Part shown: piece after piece, positions 23,845 through 38,429 of the stretch
How the letters are laid out: each line of letters starts with the position of its first letter
Position numbering within the stretch: the first letter of the stretch is position 1
Assembly (NCBI GenBank): GCA_025998675.1
Contig: AP024673.1
Location: forward strand, 895,221 to 959,220
Direction of reading: 5' to 3'
From: Fimbriimonadales bacterium
Lineage (GTDB): Bacteria; Armatimonadota; Fimbriimonadia; Fimbriimonadales; GBS-DC
DNA length: 64,000 bases
Notes under the pieces: generated by a model
Database searches by the model: none
What the model saw: only the letters and a program-made list of their open reading frames with translations
Told to the model about the DNA's origin: nothing
Translations under genes and position numbers: made by a program

Positions 23845-26800
23845 TTAGTAGTAAATCAGATTTGCATACTTGCCATGAATGGATGGATCGTAAACTTCCA
23901 CGCGCCCTGTACCAGGATTCTGTACTACAGGAGGATACGGTGAGCCAATGCCTGGAGGCAGGGGATAAAGAGGAAACTCAGGTTTAGAGGGCATCGGAAA
24001 CCTGATGGTACATCTTATAAACAGCAACTCGAAAGATACCTCTATACCATTTTTGCCCGCCTCAAAGTCGACATCTATTCCTGGAGGAAAATTGAAGTCA
24101 ATTTCAACATCGCCTCCTCCAGGCAGATATTCAGGAGGTGTTGGTGTCCACAAATCAAGTATATTAACATAGCCACGTCCATTAACCCATACGTACTCGA
24201 GTCCACTCGGATCCACTGCGTTCACGGGGTCATTCACGCAATACCCATACGCATTCAGCGTCAACGGCGCATAGACAGACCCCAACCACGGATCCTGCTG
24301 CAAGAACCTGCCTACTGTCGGGTCGTACCAGCGCACGCCTACATTCTGCAAGCCGCCCGTCAGCGCCTCGTTCCGATAGCCCCACGCCCCGTTCCAGTCG
24401 TAGGTCGGACGCGCGCCTGCTATCGTGTCGCCAAAGGCATCGGTAATCGGCGCAGGCGAATACGCACCCGTCGGGCTGCTCGTCGCCGCCAAGTCCCCAC
24501 GCAGGCTCCAGTGCTTGTATTCTGTGCCCGCGTTGCTTACCTGCTGGTACATCGACCCACCGTAGCCGTAGTATACCCACTGCAACGGGTCGCTGCTACT
24601 TTGCCGACTGCCCTCCGCTACCAGCGTGTCGCCTGAATACAGGTACACTACCTCCAAACTCCCACGCACCGCACGCACACGACGCCCCAAACCGTCATAC
24701 TCGTACACCCAGCCAACGCCACTGTCCTGTTCCTTCTGCAGACTCACCAAGTTCCCTTCCGCGTCATAGCCCAACAACCAAGTCTCATTCCCCACACGAC
24801 GCACCACGACATTCCCGTCCGCATCGTGTTCCCACGCTTGACCATTGAGCGACACCAACTGGTTCGCCGCGTTGTATGCCATCACATCCGTGAAGGTCTG
24901 CCCGTTCACCGTGCGCGTGCGTGTCAGACGGTTGCCCACCAAGTCGTAGGTGTACGCAATCGTGTAGGGGTTCGTACCCGTGCGCACCTCCCGAATGAGC
25001 TGCCCCTGATGGTCGTAGGTGTAGGTCGTGGTCGCCGACAGCTGCAACGCGCCTTGCGCATCGGGCAGATGCTCCTCTTTCGTCTCTATGCGCCCCAGCG
25101 CGTCGTAGGAGTAAACCTCCTTCCGAAACGGAACCGTGCCCGCGCGCCATTCCATCTCCCGAACGCGTTCGGGATAGGGGCTGTTGTAATAGCGGTAGAC
25201 AACCTCGGTACCGTTGCCGTATCGTACCCGTTGCAAGCGACCTGTGCCCGCCTCGCGAATGTAGTGCACTTCAGGCTGCGCCGCGTTGCCCGTGTGCACT
25301 TTCTCCAGCGCGCCCGCCGCGTCGTAGACATAATGATACCGCTTTAGGGTCTGCCCTGCGCTATCCTTGAGGGTGAACTCGGTCAACTGCCCGCGCGTCC
25401 AACCGTACTCTACCGCGCCTTCAAGGGAATAGTTCTGCGCGTTTGCCCGCTTGTCGTAGTAGCTAATCCGCTCCAGTTCGCCCGTTGTGGCGCGGTATTC
25501 CCACACGGTACGCCGTGCGCTCTGGGCGCGAGTTTCCTCCATCTCCAGCAGTTGCCCCTCCAAATCGTAAGTGTACCGAATCAGAGCGTTGGGCGTCTGC
25601 TTCTCGCGCGGGCGTCCCCAGCTATCGTACTTATAGCGGACGGTCTGCCCGCGCGCGTTCGTGGCTTGCTCCACCCAGCCGAGCGCGTTGCGCTGCACCG
25701 TCCCGCCGTGCCCAAGCGCGTCCTGCACTTGGGTGGTGTGTCCGTAGGCGTCGTAGAGGTACTTCTGCGTGCGGTGTCCTTCAGCGTCCCACGCCTCTTG
25801 CAGCAGTCCGCGTGTGGTATCCCACACATAGGTGGTTATCGCCTCGCCGCCTGCGCCTGTGCCCGTCAGCTCTTTGACCTGCTCCAAGTCGCCGAAGGCG
25901 TTGTAGGTGTAGAACTTTCGGTACTTACCCGACGGCGTCAGCGCGTCGCGAACGCTGCGCAGGCGGTTCAACGCCGTATACTCCAGCTCTACGGCTTTGC
26001 CCGCGCCGTCCTCCACGCGCGTGAGGTTGCCCCGCTCGTCCCAGCAGAAGTGGTAGACGGCGCCTGCAGGCGTCTGCGCGCTCTGGAGCTGGAAGAGGCT
26101 GTTCCAGTGCATCTGCGATACGCGCCCCAGCGGGTCAATCGTGCGGTTGAGCCGTCCCAGCGCGTCGTACTCGTAGGTCAGAAAGCGCCAGTTGCCGTCG
26201 GAGTCTTGGCTGACGGCGTAGTGCACGCGCCGCACCGTTGCGCCGAGCGTGGAGGCGCACTGCCCGCTGATGTCAATCACGGGGCAGGCGCGGATGGGCG
26301 TGGCGCACACCTCCGTGCGGAGCAGCCCACCGCCAAAGTCGCCGCCAGATCCTGGGCGTCCCAGCACACGAAACCCCGTGCACTCAAAAGTATGATAGCT
26401 GGTCGTGTCGTATTCGTACACCACGCCCAACCCTTCCCGATTATCAATCTGGGTGAGCACATAGCGCGGCGCGAACTCGTTGCCGAAGTTTGTGTAGCTG
26501 AACTGATAGGCATACGGGGTCGGGTCTGTGGTTCCGTCGTACGAGAGCGGGGGAAAGATGACCCGCGCCAAGCGCGGCGTATTCCCGCCCATCTCGTTCA
26601 AGGTCGGCAGATACTCAAATCGCCATACTTGTTCGGGCACATTCGGCGCGCCCTCCACACGCACGGCAGCCAACTTACCTCGCCACGCAGGCGGCGCGTC
26701 CTGTCCGTAGTAGCTCAATCGCAACGCCCGCCCTGTGGTATCGACCACGCGCGTCAACTCCCCGCTAACGGGATTGTACTCCAACGCCACGCCCTGATTG

Positions 26801-27942
26801 TGCAGGTCGCGGATGGCGACTAAGCGCCCTGAGAGGTCAAAGACCCAGCGCGTCTGCGAGGGGCGAATGAGGTGGTATTCACTGTCGGCGCGTACCAGTC
26901 GGTCGTAGACTCCCTTCATCGCGACATAGCTCCCGTCGGGCTGCTCCGCGAAGACCACGATGCGTCCATCAGGCTCCTCAAGCCTTATGCCCTCCGCAAC
27001 GGGCACGAGGCGCGCCTCGTAGCTATGCCGCCAGCCAATCCCCAGCGCGCCCGTGCGCGTGTCCAAAGCGTTGTAGGTCAAGCCGAACGCTACCCCCGAT
27101 TGCCCGCCCCACGCAATCAGACCCAAGCCCACCACAAGATTGCCGTTGGCGGGATTGATGACGCCATAGGGCACGGGGAAGCTGCCTTGCCACGGGAAGG
27201 GCGCGCCGAAGGTGTTGGGCGCGGGCGCAGTCGCCTGCACATCGGTGCGGCTAATCGTGAGCCAGCTCCCCCCTGCAGGCGCGACCACCTGCACGGCATA
27301 GGGGTTCGGCGTCGGCACGGGGATAGAGACGACCTGCAACGGCGCGTCGTTGAATGCGATGGAGGTTGTGTATTGGGCGCCTGTGATGCGGTCGCGCAGG
27401 TTGATTTGGGCTGTGCCCGACGGGACGCCTACATAGTCGCCCAGTTGGACGGCGAACTGCAGCGTGTACCACCCGCTGGGCGCGGGGAAGCTGCCCCACG
27501 AGGCGTCGGCGGACTGTCCGAAGCTGAATAGCACAATCATTAGGTCGGCGTCATCCACAGTGCCGTCGCCGTTGAGGTCGGCGTCGCCGCCCGTCGCGCC
27601 GAACTGGAACTGCACGGCTAACAGGTCGCTATCGTCTACAGTGCCGTCGCGCGTGACATCGCCATTTGGAAGTGTGAGGGTGGGCACATCAGGGGGACAG
27701 GGTGCTGTAAGGCTGCTGAAGAGTTCTGAAAGATGGGAGTTGCTAAGTGAAGAGTGTAATTCTGTATTTACACTATTTACCCCCCCCCGTGTGAGGTTGG
27801 CATTGGCGACGGCAGATGGGGCAGCCAGCGACGGCGCGACCATCGCGATACCCAGCACGGTAGCGATACCCTTTCCGACAGTACCCTGCGCCAGTGTGTG
27901 GCGCACTCGCTTCAGACTCCAGCCCTTTTGCAGACCCAGCAT
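23845..27942 (-). CDS. Large RHS/YD-repeat protein with dockerin-like insert and variable tip
   Basis: A 1,365-residue exported protein. After a signal-like segment (about 25-45) comes a tandem EF-hand dockerin-like cassette (about 94-142: [15 protein letters not shown] and [14 protein letters not shown]). The bulk is RHS/YD repeats ([34 protein letters not shown]). The conserved core end is [19 protein letters not shown]...[19 protein letters not shown]. The last ~116 residues form a divergent, A+T-richer tip with no recognised toxin motif. ATG 27942 is chosen for its GGAGGT site; an ATG 15 bases upstream is less likely. A G9 tract lies at codons 52-55. Confidence 0.92.
27780..27788 (-). repeat. 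G9 homopolymer near the start of the RHS gene
   Basis: Nine consecutive C on the plus strand (G on the coding strand), covering codons for Arg52-Gly53-Gly54-Val55. One-base slippage would frameshift the remaining 1,310 residues. Confidence 0.9.
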
Positions 27943-27998
27943 CGTTCTGACCTCCATCGGTTCAGTGCTTGCCCCCTGATTTTGCGGGGCGCATCTAC

Positions 27999-28027
27999 AT
28001 TATAGCACAGAATTTCGCGATTGTCAA
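27999..28027 (-). promoter_or_regulatory. Consensus promoter of the RHS gene
   Basis: On the minus strand TTGACA (28022-28027) and TATAAT (27999-28004) are separated by exactly 17 bases, a perfect sigma-70 type promoter. The leader would be about 50 bases and holds a small GCCCC/GGGGC hairpin (27971-27990). The remaining gap to 28195 is G-rich with a short GGAGCC/GGCTCC stem; nothing else was recognised. Confidence 0.8.
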
Positions 28028-28195: not shown

Positions 28196-29887
28196 ATGCG
28201 CATGCGCTCAGGCTTTTGGATGGCAGGGCTTGTCTTGGCAGGCAGTTTGCACGCTCAGACACTGGTCGATTCAGACCTTACTTACGACACCGTTGTCAGC
28301 AGCGGGCTGTCGTTCCCAATTGCGATGGCGTTTTTAGACCCGTCTGACCCCACGCGCTTTTTCGTGATTGAGAAAGCCAGCGGGCGCGTCAAGCTGGTGC
28401 AAAACGGCGCAGTGGTCAGCACCGTGCTGGACCTGCCCGTGAACAACGCCAGCGAGCGCGGGCTGCTCGGCATCGCGCTGCACCCCGACTTCGCCACAAA
28501 CGGCTATGTCTACCTCTACTACACCCGCTCCAGCACTGGTTCAGACTCCTCCACTTCGTCAGCGTGGACAGATAACCGCGTGGAGCGGTATCGCTGGAAC
28601 GGCTCTGCGTTGGTGGAGCCGACACTGATTGTGGCGTTCCCGCGCGACACCACGCAAAACAACGGTCCCAACCACGATGGGGGCGTCATACTGTTCGGAC
28701 CTGACAGCAAACTCTACGGCGTTACGGGCGACCTGAATCGCGGCACGCTCAGCAACCCGCGTATCGAGCAGAACACCAGCGCGACGGCGGTGGCAGGCGT
28801 GGGCGGCGTCTTTCGGCTCAACCCCGACGGCTCCATCCCGCCCGACAACCCGTTCGTGAGCCATGCCGACCCGCGCATTCAACGGCTGTGGGCGTATGGC
28901 ATCCGCAACAGCTTCGGCATGGACTTCGACAGCCTCACGGCGCGCCTGTGGCTCACCGAAAACGGACCGAATGTGTACGACGAAATCAACCTCGTCGGGC
29001 GCGGCTTCAACAGCGGCTGGCTGAAGCTTATGGGACCCGACTCGCGCAACGCAGCCTACTCGGAGAACGGCAACCAAGCCTACGACGCCAGCGACTTGGT
29101 CTACCTGCCGAACGCCTACTATGCCGACCCTGTCTTCTCGTGGCTGCAACCGATTGGCGTGACGAGCATCGTATTTGTGCGCTCGGCACGGTTCGACGCG
29201 GGCATGCGCGACGAGGTCATCGTCGGCGAGAGCAATAACGGCAGGCTGTATCGCTTCACGATGAACGCCACACGCGACGACTTCGTGCTGACGGGCGCGC
29301 TCGCCGACCGCGTGGCGGATTCTGCGACCGAGCGCAACCTGCAGACCTTCGGCACGAACTGGGGCGTGGTGACCGACTTGCGGGTCGGTCCCGATGGCTA
29401 CCTGTATGTGGTGAGCCTGTACGCGAATCGGGTGTACCGCATCCGTCCTGTGAACCCACCAACGATTGTGTCGGGTCAGGCGCGGCTGGAGGGCAAGCAA
29501 GGGCTGCCGCTGGGCGCGCCGCTCACGCTCGAACTGCGTCAGGACGGCAACACCGTGCAGACCATCACCACAACGCTGGACGCCTACGGGCGGTTCTCGG
29601 AGCGCGTGGCGAGCGCAGGCGTCTACACGGTTCGCGCGAAGGCGGCGGGCTACCTGTCCGTGAGCGTGTCGGGCGTCTCCATCGCGAGCGGCGGCTACGC
29701 CTATCTGAACCTGCGCTTTGAAACGCTGGGCGATGTGAACGGCGACGACCTCATCGACGACGCCGACTTGCTGGCGGTGCTGTTCGCCTTCGGCAGCGAC
29801 GACCCCAGCGCCGACCTGAACAGCGACGGCGTGGTGGACGACGCCGACTTGCTCACCGTGCTGTTCAACTTTGGCGCAGGGGGCTAA
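28196..29887 (+). CDS. Secreted PQQ-type sugar dehydrogenase-like protein with dockerin-like tail
   Basis: A 563-residue exported protein. A signal peptide (MAGLVLAGSLHAQ) precedes a six-bladed propeller of the soluble aldose/glucose dehydrogenase group: GLSFPIAMAFLDP, SERGLLGIALHPDFATNGYVYLYYT, NHDGGVILFGPDSKLYGVTGD, WAYGIRNSFGMDFD, WLTENGPNVYDEINL. A carboxypeptidase-regulatory-like beta domain follows (SGQARLEGKQGLP...LDAYGRFSERV, about 425-510). The final ~50 residues are a dockerin-like pair (GDVNGDDLIDDADLLAVLFAFG and DLNSDGVVDDADLL), ending FGAGG rather than the FGxGC of its neighbours. PQQ dependence is inferred from family. Confidence 0.85.
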   Translation: MRMRSGFWMAGLVLAGSLHAQTLVDSDLTYDTVVSSGLSFPIAMAFLDPSDPTRFFVIEKASGRVKLVQNGAVVSTVLDLPVNNASERGLLGIALHPDFATNGYVYLYYTRSSTGSDSSTSSAWTDNRVERYRWNGSALVEPTLIVAFPRDTTQNNGPNHDGGVILFGPDSKLYGVTGDLNRGTLSNPRIEQNTSATAVAGVGGVFRLNPDGSIPPDNPFVSHADPRIQRLWAYGIRNSFGMDFDSLTARLWLTENGPNVYDEINLVGRGFNSGWLKLMGPDSRNAAYSENGNQAYDASDLVYLPNAYYADPVFSWLQPIGVTSIVFVRSARFDAGMRDEVIVGESNNGRLYRFTMNATRDDFVLTGALADRVADSATERNLQTFGTNWGVVTDLRVGPDGYLYVVSLYANRVYRIRPVNPPTIVSGQARLEGKQGLPLGAPLTLELRQDGNTVQTITTTLDAYGRFSERVASAGVYTVRAKAAGYLSVSVSGVSIASGGYAYLNLRFETLGDVNGDDLIDDADLLAVLFAFGSDDPSADLNSDGVVDDADLLTVLFNFGAGG

Positions 29888-29955
29888 GTTGTCCCCTGCA
29901 CAATTGCCAGATTCGGGCAATTCGCGGAACTTGCGCCCAATTTGTCCGAATCAAA

Positions 29956-29984
29956 GGGTACATTCGGCTGTGCGGCTGCATTAA
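29956..29984 (+). repeat. Conserved leader element, copy 1
   Basis: A 29-base stretch beginning GGGTACATT and ending GGCTGCATTAA, 20 bases before the ATG at 30004. It matches 32839-32867 at 26 of 29 positions, upstream of the paralogous gene. It probably carries the shared promoter, with CATTAA as a weak -10. Confidence 0.6.
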
Positions 29985-30003
29985 TAAACTGGAGGACCCA
30001 ATC

Positions 30004-31119
30004 ATGAAACGGAGCATCTGGATTTTTGGACTCACAGCGAGCGCGCTGTTGGCAAGCCTGAGCGCGCCCGCGCCGGCGCAGAATGTCGAATGCTGTAGCT
30101 ACCAGGTACGGCACAACTTCCGTATCTGCCTGCCGAACTGCCAGTTTTCCTCTGTAGACTGGACATGGCGCACGCAAGCGTCCGCCTGGAACCCGCTCAC
30201 GACGAACACCAACAACGGCACGCAGACCTACAATATCCCCAGCTCGGACACCAAGTGCGCGAATGTCGTCGTAGGTCAGGACTGCGCCTTCGCCACCGCG
30301 TGCGCTCGGTTTCAAGTTGACCCGATTCCGGGCACGCCGTGCATTCGGGGATTCCACGAGGCGTTTGGACGCGCCTGTGTGCGCTGTCGTCGCTACGGCG
30401 CGCAGGCAGTAAGCGCGTCTGCCATCACCATCAACTGCGGAAGCGTGAACTCCGCGGGCACGATTACCTGGCAGCCCCACCTGCAGGATACGATTCAGGG
30501 CGGCTGCGGCGTTCAGATGGTAGACCCTGTGACGCTTCAGCTGGTCAACCCGCGCACGGGCGAGCGGCGCGAAGACAGGCTGTTCGAGCTGCGCTCGCGC
30601 GGTCCGCTCAGCTGGGAAGGGCAGGATGTGGACGGCGACGGCTGGTTTGACGCCGCACGCATCAAGTATTGCTGCCTTCCTGATATAATTGATGGCGGTA
30701 TTGCCGTGTCCATCGGCGGCGAGTCGCTGCGATCTCAGGGCGGACAGCTGGAGATTGAGGTTCAACGCGGCATCGTAACGCGCGCCTCCAAGAGCGGCGT
30801 CTTCGACGGCGTCCAGCTGCCGAATGTGGGCGACCCCATGCCTGCAGAGATTGAGGTTCCCGCCGAGTTTGACCTGTCGTTCGAAGCTCCGCAGGGCTGG
30901 CAGTTGGCGGCGCTTCAGATTGGCGGCGGCGGCGAGTCGGGCGGCACGCCTCCCCCGCCGGGCGATGTGGATGGCAACGGCTGCGTGGACGACGCCGACC
31001 TATTGCAGGTGCTGTTCGCCTTTGGCGGTCAGGGCGGCGAAGCGGATGTGAACGGCGACGGCATCGTCGACGACGCCGATTTGCTGATTGTGCTGTTCAA
31101 CTTCGGCGCGGGATGCTGA
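30004..31119 (+). CDS. Secreted Cys-rich protein with dockerin-like tail (paralogue A)
   Basis: A 371-residue exported protein of unknown function. The signal peptide ends at APAPAQ. The next ~230 residues hold a Cys-rich domain: CCSYQVRHNFRICLPNC, then about ten further Cys including CIRGFHEAFGRACVRCR. A short EF-like DVDGDGWFDAARI follows. A Gly/Pro hinge (GGGGESGGTPPPP) leads to the tandem dockerin-like cassette GDVDGNGCVDDADLL / DVNGDGIVDDADLL and the end NFGAGC. The protein is paralogous throughout to 32887-34011. GGAGGA ribosome site before the ATG. A hairpin terminator follows. Confidence 0.8.
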   Translation: MKRSIWIFGLTASALLASLSAPAPAQNVECCSYQVRHNFRICLPNCQFSSVDWTWRTQASAWNPLTTNTNNGTQTYNIPSSDTKCANVVVGQDCAFATACARFQVDPIPGTPCIRGFHEAFGRACVRCRRYGAQAVSASAITINCGSVNSAGTITWQPHLQDTIQGGCGVQMVDPVTLQLVNPRTGERREDRLFELRSRGPLSWEGQDVDGDGWFDAARIKYCCLPDIIDGGIAVSIGGESLRSQGGQLEIEVQRGIVTRASKSGVFDGVQLPNVGDPMPAEIEVPAEFDLSFEAPQGWQLAALQIGGGGESGGTPPPPGDVDGNGCVDDADLLQVLFAFGGQGGEADVNGDGIVDDADLLIVLFNFGAGC

Positions 31120-31142
31120 TCTTCTCCCCCCTCTCGCTCAAC

Positions 31143-31169
31143 ACTCCCCGCCTGAGTCAGGCGGGGAGT
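31143..31169 (+). terminator. Hairpin terminator after paralogue A
   Basis: ACTCCCCGCC and GGCGGGGAGT form a perfect 10-bp stem around TGAGTCA, itself able to pair further, followed by TTT. Confidence 0.75.
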
Positions 31170-31196
31170 TTCAACACACGAGCGAGGGTTCTGTGC

Positions 31197-31202
31197 TATA
31201 AT
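31197..31202 (+). promoter_or_regulatory. -10 hexamer upstream of gene 31220
   Basis: Perfect TATAAT 17 bases before the ATG with a GTGAGGTG ribosome site between, i.e. a short normal leader. Confidence 0.5.
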
Positions 31203-31219
31203 ATCGGGTGAGGTGCATA

Positions 31220-32791
31220 ATGAACCGAAAGAGAGCGATTGGAATAACAATCGCGATGCTTTTCGCGTCGTCTGTCATGGCGCAAAATAATGTGCAGATT
31301 ACCATCAATCTGGTGAACCCGGTGCTGAACGAGTACCAGATGACGGTTCAGAACAACAACACGGGCTGGTGGGTGGATCAGACGCATGTGCTGTATACCA
31401 CCGCAGGGGTTTTGCAGGCGACCAACACGCCGCCCAGCTGGGCACACCTGCCTGATGTGCCCTGGGACGCCATCCCCCACAACCTGCGCTTTGAGGCAAG
31501 CACGCCTGCAGCGCGGATTGCGCCGGGCGCGTCCCAGACCTTCGGCTTCAAAATGAACACGCCCACCCCCGTCGAGGACTGGTACATCCAGTTTCGCGTG
31601 GTGAATGCAAGCAACGCCACCAAAGAGTACGCCTTTCGCGTCAAGGTACAACAGACGCTGCCGACGCCCAAGGACGCAGTGGGCGCAACCGCGGGACAGT
31701 TCGCCTATCCGGGCAATAGCGAAGTGCGCTTCCAGTACGACTACGAGTATGCGACACCCGCCACCCAGTTTGCACACAGGGTGCTGGACGCCGATTCAAC
31801 GGAACGCGATCGCGTGTTCTACCCCGAAATACCCGACCCGCCCCACCTGGAACACTACTTCATAGGCAACCTCGCGCGCGATGTGGACGCCAATGGGGGC
31901 ACAGCCGGCGAACTGTGGGCGTTCGAATCGGAACACGCTCACTGGTGCAGCGGGAGTAATGGGTTTCAGTCGCTGCGCTGGCTGAGGGATGGAACCCCCA
32001 TCCCGCTGTTGCCCATGTCGTGGCGGTTCGCGCCGTCGGTGCGCCAGAGCGATGGCTCGCGCAGGGTACAGCTTACGGTGGAGAATCGCGGCAATAGAGA
32101 GCTTCGCGGCGACCTCTACCTCTACACGCAGGGAACGCAGTTATTGCGGGGGAGCGCGCTGCTGAACTGGCGTGCCCTCTTCCGACCGGACCTGCAGCAA
32201 CCGCTCACCCTCCAGCCGCGTCAATCGGCGACGATTGAATTCCTCGTGCCTGCCAGCGCTCCCGCCACGCGCTTTTTCTACGCGGAGTTCAGCAGCGGCG
32301 CGAATCGGCTCACATGGGCGCAGCAGGAAATCAACAGCCCGATACTGATTGGCTATCTGGGCGCGCTGGGCGCGAACCGCCCCGTGCGAGTGCAGGTAAT
32401 TAACCCCAACACGGGCGGCAGCCTCAATAAACTCACCATCGCCGATGCACGCGGGGTCTGGCGCATCCCGCTAGAGGACGGCGATGAGGCTATCCTGGAC
32501 GATTCGGGCTTCTACACACCCGTGTGGCTGGTGACGGTCAAGGCACGGGGCGCACTCTCGCAGCTGTTCACAGAGGTGCTGTTGCCCGGCGGCGACACGC
32601 TCGACCCCTACCTGCGTTCGCAGCTTGTGCTGGGCGATGTGAACGGCGACGATTGTATCGACGACGCCGACCTGTTGCTGGTGCTTTTCAACTTCGGCAG
32701 CGGCAACGCTCCCGCGGACCTGAACCTCGATGGCGTGGTGGACGACGCCGATTTGCTTCTGGTGCTGTTCAACTTCGGCGCAGGGTGCTGA
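31220..32791 (+). CDS. Secreted beta-rich protein with dockerin-like tail
   Basis: A 523-residue exported protein of unknown function. A signal peptide (AIGITIAMLFASSVMAQ) precedes about 440 residues that look beta-rich and Ig-like (NNVQITINLVNPVLNEYQMTV, RVQLTVENRGNRELRGDLYLYT, LQPRQSATIEFLVPASA). No enzyme motif is recognised. The C-terminal cassette is GDVNGDDCIDDADLLLVLFNFG / DLNLDGVVDDADLLLVLFNFGAGC. ATG 31220 is chosen over GTG 31208 because of the ribosome site and the signal peptide start MNRKRAIG. It lies between the paralogous pair. Confidence 0.8.
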   Translation: MNRKRAIGITIAMLFASSVMAQNNVQITINLVNPVLNEYQMTVQNNNTGWWVDQTHVLYTTAGVLQATNTPPSWAHLPDVPWDAIPHNLRFEASTPAARIAPGASQTFGFKMNTPTPVEDWYIQFRVVNASNATKEYAFRVKVQQTLPTPKDAVGATAGQFAYPGNSEVRFQYDYEYATPATQFAHRVLDADSTERDRVFYPEIPDPPHLEHYFIGNLARDVDANGGTAGELWAFESEHAHWCSGSNGFQSLRWLRDGTPIPLLPMSWRFAPSVRQSDGSRRVQLTVENRGNRELRGDLYLYTQGTQLLRGSALLNWRALFRPDLQQPLTLQPRQSATIEFLVPASAPATRFFYAEFSSGANRLTWAQQEINSPILIGYLGALGANRPVRVQVINPNTGGSLNKLTIADARGVWRIPLEDGDEAILDDSGFYTPVWLVTVKARGALSQLFTEVLLPGGDTLDPYLRSQLVLGDVNGDDCIDDADLLLVLFNFGSGNAPADLNLDGVVDDADLLLVLFNFGAGC

Positions 32792-32838
32792 ACCGCGTCC
32801 TACACAAATGCCGCGCCAACGAATTCGTTGCTCTACAT

Positions 32839-32867
32839 GGGTACATTGGACTGTGTGGCTGCATTAA
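32839..32867 (+). repeat. Conserved leader element, copy 2
   Basis: Twenty-six of 29 bases match 29956-29984 and the position relative to the ATG is the same (19 bases). The leader thus duplicated together with the gene. Confidence 0.6.
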
Positions 32868-32886
32868 GAGAATGGAGGATGAAACC

Positions 32887-34011
32887 ATGCGACGACATTA
32901 CGGGATATTGGCGATATTGGCGATTGCCTTTAGCGCACTGACGACCACGATGGCGCAGAACCAGCAACCATGCTGTCGCTTCCGAGTCGTGCATAACTTC
33001 AGGGTGTGCCTGCCGCAGGGCTGTCAGCCACAGGTGACATGGACATGGAACACGCTGGCGGCAGTGTGGGATTTGAACAACCTGCCGCCTATCATCAACA
33101 CGAACAGCGGGACGCAAACTTATAGCGTGCCCAGCAACGACAACCAGAGTACGCAGGCGGTAATTACCGTCGGGAATCAGACCTGCGCGAGCGCCTTCGC
33201 CTCAGCGGGGTTTAATATCAGCTGGATTCCAGGCAGCCCTAACTGCGTGCAGGGGGCGCACTACGCCAACGGCAGTGCCTGCGCCTTCTGCCGCATGCAC
33301 GGCGCGAACGCGGGCGCGAACTCGCACATCACGATTGCCTGCCCCAGCATGACACAGGGGACGGTAGTCTGGCAACCCTTCCTGCAGGATTTCGTCGGCG
33401 GCGAGTGCAGCACGCAGATGTATGACCCCGTTATCGTCAGAGCCATTGACCCCTCAGGACAGCCTCAGAATATCGAGTTGTTCAGCCTGCGTGGACGCGG
33501 CTTCCAGTGGCAGGGGCAAGATGTCGACGGCGACGGCTGGTACGACGATGCTCGTATCAGAGGCAATGAGCCTCGCAAAGTCGGTTATGTCACGCTCCTG
33601 AAAGGAAGAACAGACGGCGCAGTGTCCCGCTTGCGACTGGCTTGGGACGACGACGGAATCATTACAGAGTCGGAAGCCACGGGCGAATTCGCAGATATTC
33701 AACTCCCTCAGGTCGGCGAACCGCTGCCAGATGAGGGTGTTCGTGTGCCCGCGACTTTCGAACTTCCGTTTGAACTCCCCGACGGCTGGTCTGTCGAATC
33801 CATCGAGATGGGCGGGGGCGGGGTAGCCGGGCAGGACATCCCGCGCACGCCTGGCGATGTGAACGGCGACGGCTGTGTGGATGACGCTGATTTGCTGGCA
33901 GTGCTGTTCGCCTTCGGCGGTGAAGGCGGCGAGGCAGATGTGAACGGCGACGGCATCGTCGACGACGCCGACCTGCTGATTGTGCTGTTCAACTTCGGCG
34001 CAGGGTGCTAA
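32887..34011 (+). CDS. Secreted Cys-rich protein with dockerin-like tail (paralogue B)
   Basis: A 374-residue exported protein paralogous to 30004-31119. The signal peptide ends TTTMAQ. CCRFRVVHNFRVCLPQGC, NSGTQTYSVPSND and GSACAFCRMHGANA align with the equivalent segments of the other copy, as does DVDGDGWYDDARI. The tail is GDVNGDGCVDDADLL / DVNGDGIVDDADLL, ending NFGAGC. GGAGG ribosome site at 32874-32878. Its TAA overlaps the convergent serA stop by 4 bases, leaving no room for a separate terminator. Confidence 0.8.
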   Translation: MRRHYGILAILAIAFSALTTTMAQNQQPCCRFRVVHNFRVCLPQGCQPQVTWTWNTLAAVWDLNNLPPIINTNSGTQTYSVPSNDNQSTQAVITVGNQTCASAFASAGFNISWIPGSPNCVQGAHYANGSACAFCRMHGANAGANSHITIACPSMTQGTVVWQPFLQDFVGGECSTQMYDPVIVRAIDPSGQPQNIELFSLRGRGFQWQGQDVDGDGWYDDARIRGNEPRKVGYVTLLKGRTDGAVSRLRLAWDDDGIITESEATGEFADIQLPQVGEPLPDEGVRVPATFELPFELPDGWSVESIEMGGGGVAGQDIPRTPGDVNGDGCVDDADLLAVLFAFGGEGGEADVNGDGIVDDADLLIVLFNFGAGC

Positions 34012-35207
34012 AGCGCCACAAGCGTCGCCGCGAAGATGCTCTCGTGGCTGCGGATGGCATGCAGGGTGTCCTCTGGTGGCGCGCTATCGAGCTGGATGCG
34101 CGCCACCGCCGCCTCCGCGCCCGCGAAGATAATATTCTCCGTCTCCTGCACATTGATGTTCGCCTCGCGAAGGCAGTCGAACACATGCGCGAGAACGCCC
34201 ACCCGATCCAGATGGCGCACCACCAGCAGGTACTTGGCGGGCGTGCGGTCGGCAAGGTTGACCACATTCGGCACGCGCCCGGTGTGCATATAGGTCTGCA
34301 CGATATGCACCACCTCGGCGGCGATGGCTTCCTGCGCCTGCTGGGTGGACGCGCCGATGTGATGCGTGCCGTACACCAGCGGTAGGTTCGCCAGTGGGTT
34401 CTGGAACGCGCCCTCCCCTGCGCTGGGTTCGCCTTCAAACACATCCAGCCCCGCGCGGATTTCCTTCTCACGCACCGCCCACGCAAGCGCGTCCTCGTCC
34501 ACCACCTCAGAGCGCGCCGTGTTGATGAAGTACGCCCCGCGCCGCATCGCCTCGAAGAAGGCGCGATTGCATAGATGCCTTGTGTCGGGGGTCAGGGCGA
34601 CATGCACGCTCACGATATCCGCTTCGCTGGCGACATCGAGGGGCGTGGCGCGATAGCCAACGCCGAATTGCTCCGCGCGTTCAGGGGTGAGCGAGCGGCT
34701 CCACGCAATCACGCGCAGCCCGAACGCCCGCGCGCGGATAATCATCTCGCGCCCGATGTTGCCCACGCCAATCAGCCCCAGCGTGCAGCCATACACGCCC
34801 CGCGCGACGCTGAACTCTTTTTTGTTCCACTGCCCTGCGCGCAGCTGCGCCACATTGTCGGGAATGCGCCGATCCAGCGATAGGATGAGCCCGAACGCCA
34901 GCTCCGCCACAGCAATCGCGTTTTTGCCGGGGCAGTTGGCGACATAAATCCCCAGGCGCGAGGCGGTCGCCACATCGATGGTGTTGACGCCCGCGCCCGC
35001 GCGTATCACCAGGCTCAGTTGCCCCGCCTCCAGCATCGGCGCCGTGACTTTCGTGGAGCGCACCACCAGCACATCGGGGTTGTGTGTGCGGATGGCGTCT
35101 ACCAGCGCGTCGTCCTTGAGGCTGGGGTCGTACACCACGCTGCAGCCCAGCGCTTTCAGCCCCTCCAGCCCGCTCTGCTCAAACTTATCCGCGACGAGGA
35201 TCTTCAT
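34008..35207 (-). CDS. serA: D-3-phosphoglycerate dehydrogenase with ACT domain
   Basis: A 399-residue NAD-dependent dehydrogenase opening serine synthesis. The nucleotide fold is GCTLGLIGVGNIGREMIIRARAFG. The catalytic residues are Arg in NTARSEVVDE, Glu in DVFEGEPSAGEG and His in GTHHIGAST. The last ~75 residues form an ACT regulatory domain (YLLVVRHLDRVGVLAHVFDCLREANINVQE), so feedback by serine is likely. It is the shorter form without the extra ASB domain. It has a GGAGG site and sits within the surface-protein cluster without obvious functional link. Confidence 0.93.
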   Translation of the reverse strand: MKILVADKFEQSGLEGLKALGCSVVYDPSLKDDALVDAIRTHNPDVLVVRSTKVTAPMLEAGQLSLVIRAGAGVNTIDVATASRLGIYVANCPGKNAIAVAELAFGLILSLDRRIPDNVAQLRAGQWNKKEFSVARGVYGCTLGLIGVGNIGREMIIRARAFGLRVIAWSRSLTPERAEQFGVGYRATPLDVASEADIVSVHVALTPDTRHLCNRAFFEAMRRGAYFINTARSEVVDEDALAWAVREKEIRAGLDVFEGEPSAGEGAFQNPLANLPLVYGTHHIGASTQQAQEAIAAEVVHIVQTYMHTGRVPNVVNLADRTPAKYLLVVRHLDRVGVLAHVFDCLREANINVQETENIIFAGAEAAVARIQLDSAPPEDTLHAIRSHESIFAATLVAL

Positions 35208-35270
35208 CGAGTGCCTCCGTATTGCCTGTTCGCCATCTCACGCGAGACTCCTGCGCGCGAATCGCCGCTG

Positions 35271-35299
35271 GTACGAAGTGCGGAGGTGCAGCTTCTGCG
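35271..35299 (+). repeat. Interspersed palindromic repeat, degenerate copy
   Basis: GTACGAAGTGCGG then GGTGCAGCTTCTGCG matches 60875-60903 at 24 of 29 positions. A partly complementary arm (GAAGC...CACTCC) follows to about 35328. The 282-base gap 35208-35489 otherwise holds only the -10-like sequence of the next gene. Confidence 0.5.
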
Positions 35300-35449
35300 A
35301 ACGCCGAAGCAGACGCATCCACACTCCAGAAGACGCGCCTGCGTCATGCGCGGACAGGGGGACGGCTGAAAACTTACAGCAACGACACTCAGAGATAATT
35401 TGCTGTCTCTGATACGCCAACGGAAGGAACTCATCTTGCCATCAAGAAG

Positions 35450-35455
35450 TATAAT
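35450..35455 (+). promoter_or_regulatory. -10 hexamer of the propeller-protein gene
   Basis: Perfect TATAAT 34 bases before the ATG at 35490. TTGCCA at 35436 is too close to serve as its -35. Confidence 0.4.
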
Positions 35456-35489
35456 TCCTACGAAACTTACTGGCGGTCGGAGGAAGACG

Positions 35490-38429
35490 ATGCGGACGAT
35501 AAGCATACTCGTTATGGCGCTGCTTGTGTGCATGGGGGATGCACAAGATCGGATTTCTGCGCGAGCGCAGCTTCTCCACTTTGCGCCCACCCAGTTGGCG
35601 TTCCAGCCCGATGGACGCCATCTTGTGATGATGCGTCACGACTTCATGGCACTCTACGATACGCTCCAGAACAAAGTTGTTCGTGTGATGACACCCCAGC
35701 AGATTGGAGCGGCCTTGTTTGTGGACACCAACGGCTCCATGATAGCCGTGACTCAGCAATCTGCCCCTGCTGTTTACGAAACGAACACTCTGCGTCTGAT
35801 TCGCAGATTCGACTCCTCTCTCGAGCTCCTTCGGCTTTCGCCGACGGGCGCTTGGGTTGCGTTGCGCAGCCGCGGTCAAAGCAGCGCAACTATCTACTTT
35901 GTGAACCTGTACGATGGTCGTTCATACAGTTATACCCATGATAATTTATATTCACATTTTTACGCCGTTCTGAGGTATCCCAAGGTATGCTTTGCTCCAG
36001 ATGAACAGCGCGCGGTTGTGGTCGTCGCGCTACGAGACCCTGCGCCTCCTCAAGCGTTTGTGATTCGCCTGACGGACGGCGCTGTGGAGAATCAGTTTGA
36101 GTTCGGGCACGCAGACACGCTACCGATAGGACTATCTGTCTCTCCAACAGGGCGCTCGATGGCGGTCTTCGCGTGGCACCGCGAAGCCACTACAGGCGAT
36201 CTATTGTATCTGGACCTGCAGACAGGAAGCGAGCAAAATCTTAGTGGAATGGCTGAAGTGGATCGCACGGGCATTGCCTGGCTCTCAGACGAGACTCTAT
36301 TGTTCGGTACAGGTTATGAAATCCTGACTTTTACCAACGGCATCCGACAAAAGGCGATTGCGACAGGATTTGCCGCGTGGGATATTGCGGTACAACCAGG
36401 TACGCAGCGCCTTTTCGCCGCCCATAGACAGGGCGTGCACACGATAGACGCTGAAGACGCGCAATCCACTGTTTATGAAGGCAGAACCCCTCAGGCGTTC
36501 TGGGCTTACCACTATACCCTGCTTTCCCCAAACCGCGAGTGGGTGGTCGTGCCGAAGTTCGACGGTATCGCTCGCCAGTGGGGGCTATCCCTACTCCGGG
36601 CGCGCGATCTGACAGAAATACGCTGGATAGCCACTGGCAGCTTGACACCCCCCCTCGCGATTTCCAACGACGCGCAACGGCTGGTAATCTTCTCAGGGGG
36701 TGGACTGTTCCGCATGATTGATGTGGATTCGGGGCAAACGCTCTGGCAGCGCACCTACTCTTCGTCGGCAACCCCTTCAGCCCTCTTCATCCCTGATGGC
36801 AGTGGAATTATCCTATGCCTTGGAAACCAGCTGTACCGCATCGACAACGGGGGCAACCAGTTGTGGCAGACCCAGATTCCAGCGTTCTCCTTGAGACCAT
36901 TTGCCCTGACCGCCGATAACAAAATCCTCGCCCTGCGCGGCATGTTCAACCGCAGCGAGCTGATTCAAATCGATTTGGAAACGCTGGAGGTAGGAATACT
37001 TTATCAGGGCTTCCACGGACTTCAACACGCCGCTCTGACCCCGGACGGCGACTACCTGGCGCTCAGCCGAAGAGACAGCAGCGACTTCTGCAGTATCCTT
37101 CTCTTCCGATACCCCTCAATGGAACAGGTAACAGCGCTGCTAATTGAAAACTACTATTACTATGATCCTGTTGCTGGTCTCCAGCGTATCCCTGTGGCTC
37201 TGGACTCCTACGCGGGCAATAACGAGTTCCATGTGCTTGCTTTGGGAACCGTGAACATTATCGACGCTGAAACAGCGCGCCTCGTGCGTCGTATCCCCCT
37301 GCAGGACCCTTATGGGAGCGCTTTCTGGCGTACTCCGAACGGCTGGATTACCCACACCGCCAGTACTACAGAACAGAACCCCCTACTTGTATTCCACTAC
37401 GCCAGCGACACGCCGCGAATTAGCGCCATTTCAGTTCCTGCTGCCAGAGCGGTGTTTGCAGACGAGCAACAGGTGCTTTTCTCAGGCGATATCGGCGGCG
37501 TCTTATGGAACACGAACGCCGAGCCGTGGGACTACCAGCGACTTGCCATCTTCTTGCGCGAGTTTGCAGGCAGTGGAACGATAGGAGGCGCCTGCGTTGT
37601 GGGAGAGGGTTACCTCGTGACGATGGGTTTTCAGGGAAGTGGATACTACTGGTATGCATATGAGTGGCCGACACTGCGCTTTCTCACAGGCAACTCCCTC
37701 GCCTATGGCGACCTACTTGCGAGGCGGTACGATTCTTTTGTGCGCGACCGAGAGCTCTACAACTGGGTTACAGGGCAAGCTGTGTGGCGCATCGCCGACA
37801 CGGGGTTATCGGGTATCCGGTCTGTGACCTTCTCTCCAAACGGGCACTACGCCTTGATTTGGCTGAACTCTGGCGTCTCGTGGATGTACGACACCCGCAC
37901 GAACCAGCCGCTCTGGAGTCGGGCGCAAGACCTGTCCTTAGCCAAATTCTCTCTTGACTCGCGCTACCTTCTGAACTATTCCAGCGTGTACGATGTGCAG
38001 ACAGGCGCCCTTGTGCTCTCCGCACCCCAGCTCCAATCTGCAGTCTACTTCGACGGGCGCTTCGCTGTGTTGTCTGAACGAACTCCAGAAGGCGTCAGCG
38101 TGTATCGCATTGTGGACTTCCCCACAATGCGCGTAATTGCCCAGCTCGACGCAACTCAGACAGTCACAACTTACGATGTGAGTTTCGCGGCTTCCCCCGA
38201 CAACCGATGGCTTATGTTCACCGCGCGTGAGTACAGTGCCCTGTTCCCCAATCCCTACGGTCGGGTGGAAGGCGACGCGAATCTGGATGGCTGCGTGGAC
38301 GACGCCGATTTGCTGCTTGTGTTGTTCAGCTTCTCCAGCACGGGAGGGCTCGCAGACCTCACCTTCGACGGGATAGTGGACGACGCTGATCTGCTGCGCG
38401 TACTCCTAAACTTCGGGAACGGCTGCTGA
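35490..38429 (+). CDS. Large secreted beta-propeller protein with dockerin-like tail
   Basis: A 979-residue exported protein. A signal peptide (MRTISILVMALLVCMGDAQ) is followed by many WD40/YVTN-like propeller blades across about 30-930 (FQPDGRHLVMMRHDFMALYDTL, SPTGRSMAVFAWHREATTGDLLYLDL, SPNGHYALIWLNSGVSWMYDTRT). The C-terminus is a dockerin-like pair (GDANLDGCVDDADLLLVLFSF / DLTFDGIVDDADLLRVLLNFGNGC). GGAGGA ribosome site; the upstream in-frame extension from 35400 lacks a signal and is not used. Function unknown; binding or display is likelier than catalysis. Confidence 0.82.
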   Translation: MRTISILVMALLVCMGDAQDRISARAQLLHFAPTQLAFQPDGRHLVMMRHDFMALYDTLQNKVVRVMTPQQIGAALFVDTNGSMIAVTQQSAPAVYETNTLRLIRRFDSSLELLRLSPTGAWVALRSRGQSSATIYFVNLYDGRSYSYTHDNLYSHFYAVLRYPKVCFAPDEQRAVVVVALRDPAPPQAFVIRLTDGAVENQFEFGHADTLPIGLSVSPTGRSMAVFAWHREATTGDLLYLDLQTGSEQNLSGMAEVDRTGIAWLSDETLLFGTGYEILTFTNGIRQKAIATGFAAWDIAVQPGTQRLFAAHRQGVHTIDAEDAQSTVYEGRTPQAFWAYHYTLLSPNREWVVVPKFDGIARQWGLSLLRARDLTEIRWIATGSLTPPLAISNDAQRLVIFSGGGLFRMIDVDSGQTLWQRTYSSSATPSALFIPDGSGIILCLGNQLYRIDNGGNQLWQTQIPAFSLRPFALTADNKILALRGMFNRSELIQIDLETLEVGILYQGFHGLQHAALTPDGDYLALSRRDSSDFCSILLFRYPSMEQVTALLIENYYYYDPVAGLQRIPVALDSYAGNNEFHVLALGTVNIIDAETARLVRRIPLQDPYGSAFWRTPNGWITHTASTTEQNPLLVFHYASDTPRISAISVPAARAVFADEQQVLFSGDIGGVLWNTNAEPWDYQRLAIFLREFAGSGTIGGACVVGEGYLVTMGFQGSGYYWYAYEWPTLRFLTGNSLAYGDLLARRYDSFVRDRELYNWVTGQAVWRIADTGLSGIRSVTFSPNGHYALIWLNSGVSWMYDTRTNQPLWSRAQDLSLAKFSLDSRYLLNYSSVYDVQTGALVLSAPQLQSAVYFDGRFAVLSERTPEGVSVYRIVDFPTMRVIAQLDATQTVTTYDVSFAASPDNRWLMFTAREYSALFPNPYGRVEGDANLDGCVDDADLLLVLFSFSSTGGLADLTFDGIVDDADLLRVLLNFGNGC

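Follow-up and report, generated by a model that had tools for sequence, protein, structure and literature searches.

A dockerin-like cassette with a putative disulfide clasp as a candidate surface anchor of secreted proteins in a family of Armatimonadota

Why should several different secreted proteins of one bacterium end in the same short cassette of calcium loops, and why should most of them stop at a cysteine? The question is raised by a 64,000-nucleotide stretch of a Fimbriimonadales genome (contig AP024673.1, positions 895,221 to 959,220 of the forward strand; hereafter the window), in which an earlier note, made from the sequence alone, had described five such proteins between positions 28196 and 38429. 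It had proposed that their common end is a shared sorting, anchoring or cross-linking signal rather than part of a cellulosome. Widespread dockerins exist for which no cohesin is known.

On our reading of the window ORFs, the five genes are real and in frame, and their ATG starts (28196, 30004, 31220, 32887 and 35490) are reasonable. Each product ends, as the note had claimed, in two near-identical EF-hand units, here given as GDxNxDGxVDDADLLxVLFxFG, which together form a cassette of 53 residues; four of the five proteins end in NFG[AN]GC and one in NFGAGG, again as described. The exception is a secreted glucose/sorbosone dehydrogenase-like (GSDH) propeller (28196..29887, + strand; Pfam GSDH 3.1e-50), whose Cys-less cassette (29726-29884, +) ends in GAGG and has Leu at the loop-1 Cys position; its paralogue L135 likewise carries a Cys-less cassette. 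The other four, all on the + strand, have cassettes whose calcium loop 1 bears a Cys codon at position 7, with a second Cys as the last residue, a pair that would clasp the domain. They are a secreted Cys-rich protein (30004..31119; cassette 30958-31116; Cys codons 30982-30984 and 31114-31116), a secreted protein with no family assigned (31220..32791; cassette 32630-32788; Cys codons 32654-32656 and 32786-32788) that has a 78% identical orthologue in L039, a paralogue of the first (32887..34011; cassette 33850-34008; Cys codons 33874-33876 and 34006-34008), and a secreted beta-propeller-like protein (35490..38429; cassette 38268-38426; Cys codons 38292-38294 and 38424-38426). The N-terminal parts of these five proteins are unrelated save in the pair 30004/32887 (51% identity; about 41% over the N-terminal parts), the one pair singled out before. 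The structural model of 32887 comprises a beta domain plus a dockerin; its N-terminal domain was modelled confidently as beta, but only the dockerin part had a convincing fold match in the PDB. Both 30004-31119 and 32887-34011 have an all-beta N-terminal domain that is rich in Cys, many of these being invariant.

The placement of the cassette is not strictly C-terminal, because a secreted RHS/YD-repeat protein encoded outside 28196-38429 (23845..27957, - strand) carries a copy directly behind its signal peptide (27508-27666, -), without the Cys pair. Both RHS repeats and PF00404 scored over the cut-off in this protein, and a paralogue (L168, G000:C1:1868096) has the same N-terminal layout. A further protein (L134, G000:C1:508022) has its cassette at or near the mature N-terminus. 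Just upstream of the window's RHS gene, at 27999-28027 (-), lies a perfect sigma-70 consensus promoter (TTGACA, 17 nt, TATAAT, with an extended -10 TG).

We built a profile from the six window cassettes, searched it against the 2.99-Mb genome at E<=10 and read the ORF at each locus. This yielded 91 matches, the weakest with an E-value of 3.5e-8. The cassette lies within 30 residues of the stop codon in 86 of the 91 proteins, and 88, judged crudely by hydrophobicity, have an N-terminus like a signal peptide. The genome-wide excess of terminal Cys on which the earlier note had staked its claim in advance was found, as 56 of the 91 cassette proteins, all among the 86 with C-terminal cassettes, end exactly in Cys. 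Its 'island' survives as a mild local cluster (six cassette genes in 11 kb, where the genome-wide mean is one per 33 kb) and not as something peculiar to this locus. The N-terminal parts fall into 44 clusters to which the cassette is common, and its helix residues are highly conserved. HAF repeats, DVUA0089, PPC and propellers are the commonest N-terminal families; in 85 members, the 25 commonest Pfam or NCBIfam families include no glycoside hydrolase. The relatives are MAGs of Armatimonadota/Fimbriimonadales. In the window's own family all 18 sampled genomes carry it, in 14 to at least 57 copies each (57 being the number of candidates scored per genome and hence a lower bound); in most genomes of a large family of the same order (f3) it is absent or present in few copies. 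An AxA^Q-type cleavage motif was seen in 64 of the 88 signal-peptide-like N-termini (L119-L192 and the window; cassette proteins only), and these proteins, once mature, would therefore start with Gln, possibly as pyroglutamate.

What kind of domain is the cassette? AlphaFold, run on 89 cassettes, gave a dockerin fold (pLDDT 89.6), the best PDB match of the cassette model was 2y3n_B (TM 0.81, rmsd 1.2), and a PDB sequence search returned seven distinct chains, all dockerin-type or from known dockerin-bearing enzymes. The cassette is thus modelled as a dockerin with two loop-helix motifs, and the conserved loop ligand residues suggest that both loops bind calcium. With Dockerin_1 (PF00404) and the cellulosomal dockerins (2y3n, 1ohz) it shares the fold, the two calcium loops and, probably, clasped ends, but its inter-repeat linker is shorter, it often falls below the Pfam cut-off, it has no detectable cohesin, and its clasp would be a disulfide instead of ring stacking. 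PF00404 gave 15 matches in the genome at E<=0.001.

A name for this kind already exists, 'GC-type dockerin domain-anchored protein' (NCBIfam NF041540), and it includes the anchor concept. Like that family, the cassettes have two C-terminal dockerin repeats (86 of 91), a final GC (56 end in Cys) and a match that reaches the last profile position; unlike it, they include a large Cys-less subtype and N-terminal placements. The six window proteins scored 17.3-27.1 bits against NF041540 as whole proteins, under the cut-off of 29, and in a six-frame search two window cassettes (genome 926184 and 929073) were at or over 29 bits (32887 scored 27.1 bits as a whole protein and 30.2 in the six-frame search). 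At E<=0.01, 42 of 85 cassette members matched. Our literature search found no paper on 'GC-type dockerin', nor on dockerin together with PEP-CTERM. New here are the clasp evidence for the terminal Cys, the PEP-CTERM swap and the family-wide absence of a recognisable cohesin.

We then asked what the terminal Cys might do, counting Cys in profile-aligned cassettes, 83 of them complete C-terminal ones from the same genome and 100 from relatives. In the window's genome, of the 60 proteins whose calcium loop 1 has Cys as its seventh residue (A1 column 9), all 60 also have a terminal Cys; the remaining 23 cassettes have neither (16) or the terminal Cys only (7; pairing p 5e-12). Among the relatives the loop-1 Cys is accompanied by the terminal one in 59 of 60, with 29 cassettes having neither and 11 the terminal Cys only (p 5e-15). 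Two of the seven terminal-only cassettes in the window's genome have a Cys one residue earlier (column 8) and three have one right before repeat 1, so such shifted variants still keep a pair; against pairing, the orthologous families of L172 and L163 have a terminal Cys with no local partner. Reduced to one state for each of the 44 N-terminal clusters, 34 have both Cys, 7 neither and 3 are mixed (p 7e-6). A tree-based control had 48 columns to work with and almost no supported branches, and only two supported independent pairs emerged from it. In loop 2 no cassette has Cys at the corresponding position, though the repeat is almost identical. Loop variants in relatives include GDTNGDGC and GDGCTDD.

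Parity points the same way. Ten proteins of this genome have no other Cys, and their cassettes hold two (seven proteins) or none (three), never one or three. The total Cys number is even in 61 of 86 proteins, a value that none of 20000 shuffles of cassette against remaining Cys parity attained; relatives repeat this more weakly (even in 55 of 87; 321 of 20000 shuffles as high), and two relatives without other Cys go against it with three cassette Cys each. In 18 of the 83 cassettes (L147, L161, L165, L192 and others) calcium loop 2 (NCDG) contributes a third Cys, which tends to accompany an odd number of upstream Cys, as if it paired with the N-terminal domain.

In the cassette model, beta-bridge residues are predicted at the loop-1 Cys (residue 16) and at residue 59, which adjoins the terminal Cys. 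These would face each other, because in the dockerin fold the first motif begins next to where the second one finishes; the partners of the two predicted bridges were assigned by analogy with that fold. Cellulosomal dockerins have their ends held together by a stabilising 'intramolecular clasp' (PMC4728124, PMC5864761). An intramolecular disulfide with the loop-1 Cys is the most likely explanation of the terminal Cys. The pairing and the matched parity argue against thiol cross-linking or lipidation, and we infer that the residue is structural and not a means of attachment. That part of the earlier proposal which made the terminal Cys a sorting or cross-linking group is not supported: this Cys has a partner within the cassette, the two being mostly present or absent jointly, Cys-less versions exist, and N-terminal cassettes are beyond the reach of C-terminal processing.

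The anchoring part of the proposal fared better. DVUA0089-type proteins end in the cassette in the window's family; in five sister-family genomes (L221, L223, L224, L225, L228) they end in PEP-CTERM, and four others have a dockerin-like domain without Cys in that place. The window's own genome encodes a DVUA0089-type protein (L230) that ends in VPEPASMVALGAGLAGLLGLRRRKK, a PEP-CTERM end, and is about 40% identical to its cassette-ended paralogues. Because the swap is found both within a genome and between families, the cassette appears to occupy an anchor slot; the comparison of sequences fits anchoring, short of proof. That the RHS proteins have their cassettes at the N-terminus speaks for a docking module and against a C-terminal signal that is cleaved off.

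The two kinds of end have in common this C-terminal slot on homologous proteins and their large number per genome. PEP-CTERM consists of a motif, a transmembrane helix and a basic tail and is linked to exosortase, whereas the cassette is a folded domain without these; no hydrophobic segment follows the cassettes, whose last residues are FGxGC or FGxxGE, and the window contains no PEP-CTERM-like tail. Both systems coexist here, the genome having 29 PEP-CTERM matches and one exosortase. The idea that the cassette simply replaces PEP-CTERM was rejected, since both are abundant in the window's family. The single exosortase gene (L231, G000:C1:1236000-1246500) lies near ORFs that, judged by eye, are nucleotide-sugar epimerase-like and sugar-transferase-like, surroundings that resemble EPS-linked PEP-CTERM systems.

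Our preferred reading, to which we give a probability of roughly 0.6, is that the cassette is a clasped, non-cellulosomal dockerin that serves Sec-exported proteins as a non-covalent surface anchor through a putative envelope receptor. Need it bind anything at all? It could instead be a calcium-bound, disulfide-closed end cap that protects against unfolding and carboxypeptidases and has no partner; a clasp and calcium loops are stabilising devices, N-terminal cassettes also occur, and the cohesin searches described below, in this genome and in 113 genomes, detected none. We consider this unlikely, since a tag shared by 44 N-terminal clusters, with highly conserved helix residues and one sequence kept over some 90 loci, is not what would be expected of a mere cap, and since it alternates on homologous proteins with PEP-CTERM, a sorting signal.

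The cohesin profile PF00963 had no match in the window's genome at E<=10 and none over the cut-off in any of the 113 genomes of the order. By every profile test, then, the earlier note's view that this is not a cellulosome holds, and the searches gave no sign of a cohesin-bearing scaffoldin. Divergent cohesins are known to evade profile searches (PMC11557425), and the closest fold is a type II dockerin that was solved in complex with a cohesin, so that the tag might dock to divergent scaffold cohesins in a cellulosome- or amylosome-like assembly of many proteins. Given the empty profile searches and the leading N-terminal families, which are HAF repeats, DVUA0089, PPC and propellers and not glycoside hydrolases, we regard such a complex as distinctly improbable.

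The note had suggested looking for co-occurring sortase-like genes, and PF04203 found none in the genome. A T9SS origin was rejected, as the three weak matches to the tail profile TIGR04183 all lay below the cut-off. MYXO-CTERM/myxosortase resembles the present case in placing a Cys in the C-terminal tag of many surface proteins; there, the Cys precedes a transmembrane helix that is removed by cleavage, and lipidation of this Cys has been proposed (PMC11980579), whereas here the Cys is the last residue, is paired with another Cys, and comes without a transmembrane segment or basic tail. That the C-terminal Cys is a covalent anchor or cross-linker, through lipidation as proposed for MYXO-CTERM or through intermolecular disulfides, would suit the 56 of 86 C-terminal cassettes that end exactly in it but is very hard to credit when it is mostly lost jointly with the second cassette Cys, parity is matched, Cys-less and N-terminal cassettes exist, and neither a sortase nor MYXO-CTERM-type features (PMC11980579) were found.

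If the cassette is a clasped dockerin that anchors proteins non-covalently, its path can be sketched as follows. The signal peptides suggest that cassette proteins would be exported by Sec. An envelope oxidase, for which the VKOR encoded in the genome is a candidate, might then join the loop-1 and terminal Cys, as their covariation and parity would imply. The disulfide would clasp the ends of the tag, a task for which cellulosomal dockerins use a hydrophobic 'intramolecular clasp', and both loops, to judge from their conserved ligands, would load calcium. So loaded, the tag may dock non-covalently to an envelope receptor, as the dockerin fold and the anchor swap suggest; this putative receptor could be cohesin-like and too divergent for detection, or of another fold. 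The cassette would thereby fill the role that PEP-CTERM has in sister lineages and paralogues. A wider version, in which a disulfide-clasped dockerin and a non-cohesin receptor form a surface-anchoring system across the Armatimonadota family, with dozens to about 90 proteins per genome and in parallel to PEP-CTERM/exosortase, is one that we put forward only tentatively.

Among dockerins with no known cohesin, this lineage is a clean case: some 90 proteins are tagged, 113 genomes of the order lack a recognisable cohesin, and homologues show direct swaps with PEP-CTERM. The pairing of the Cys residues would account for the Cys at the end of such dockerins. Confirmation would make the cassette a compact docking tag that depends on calcium, and a handle on its receptor.
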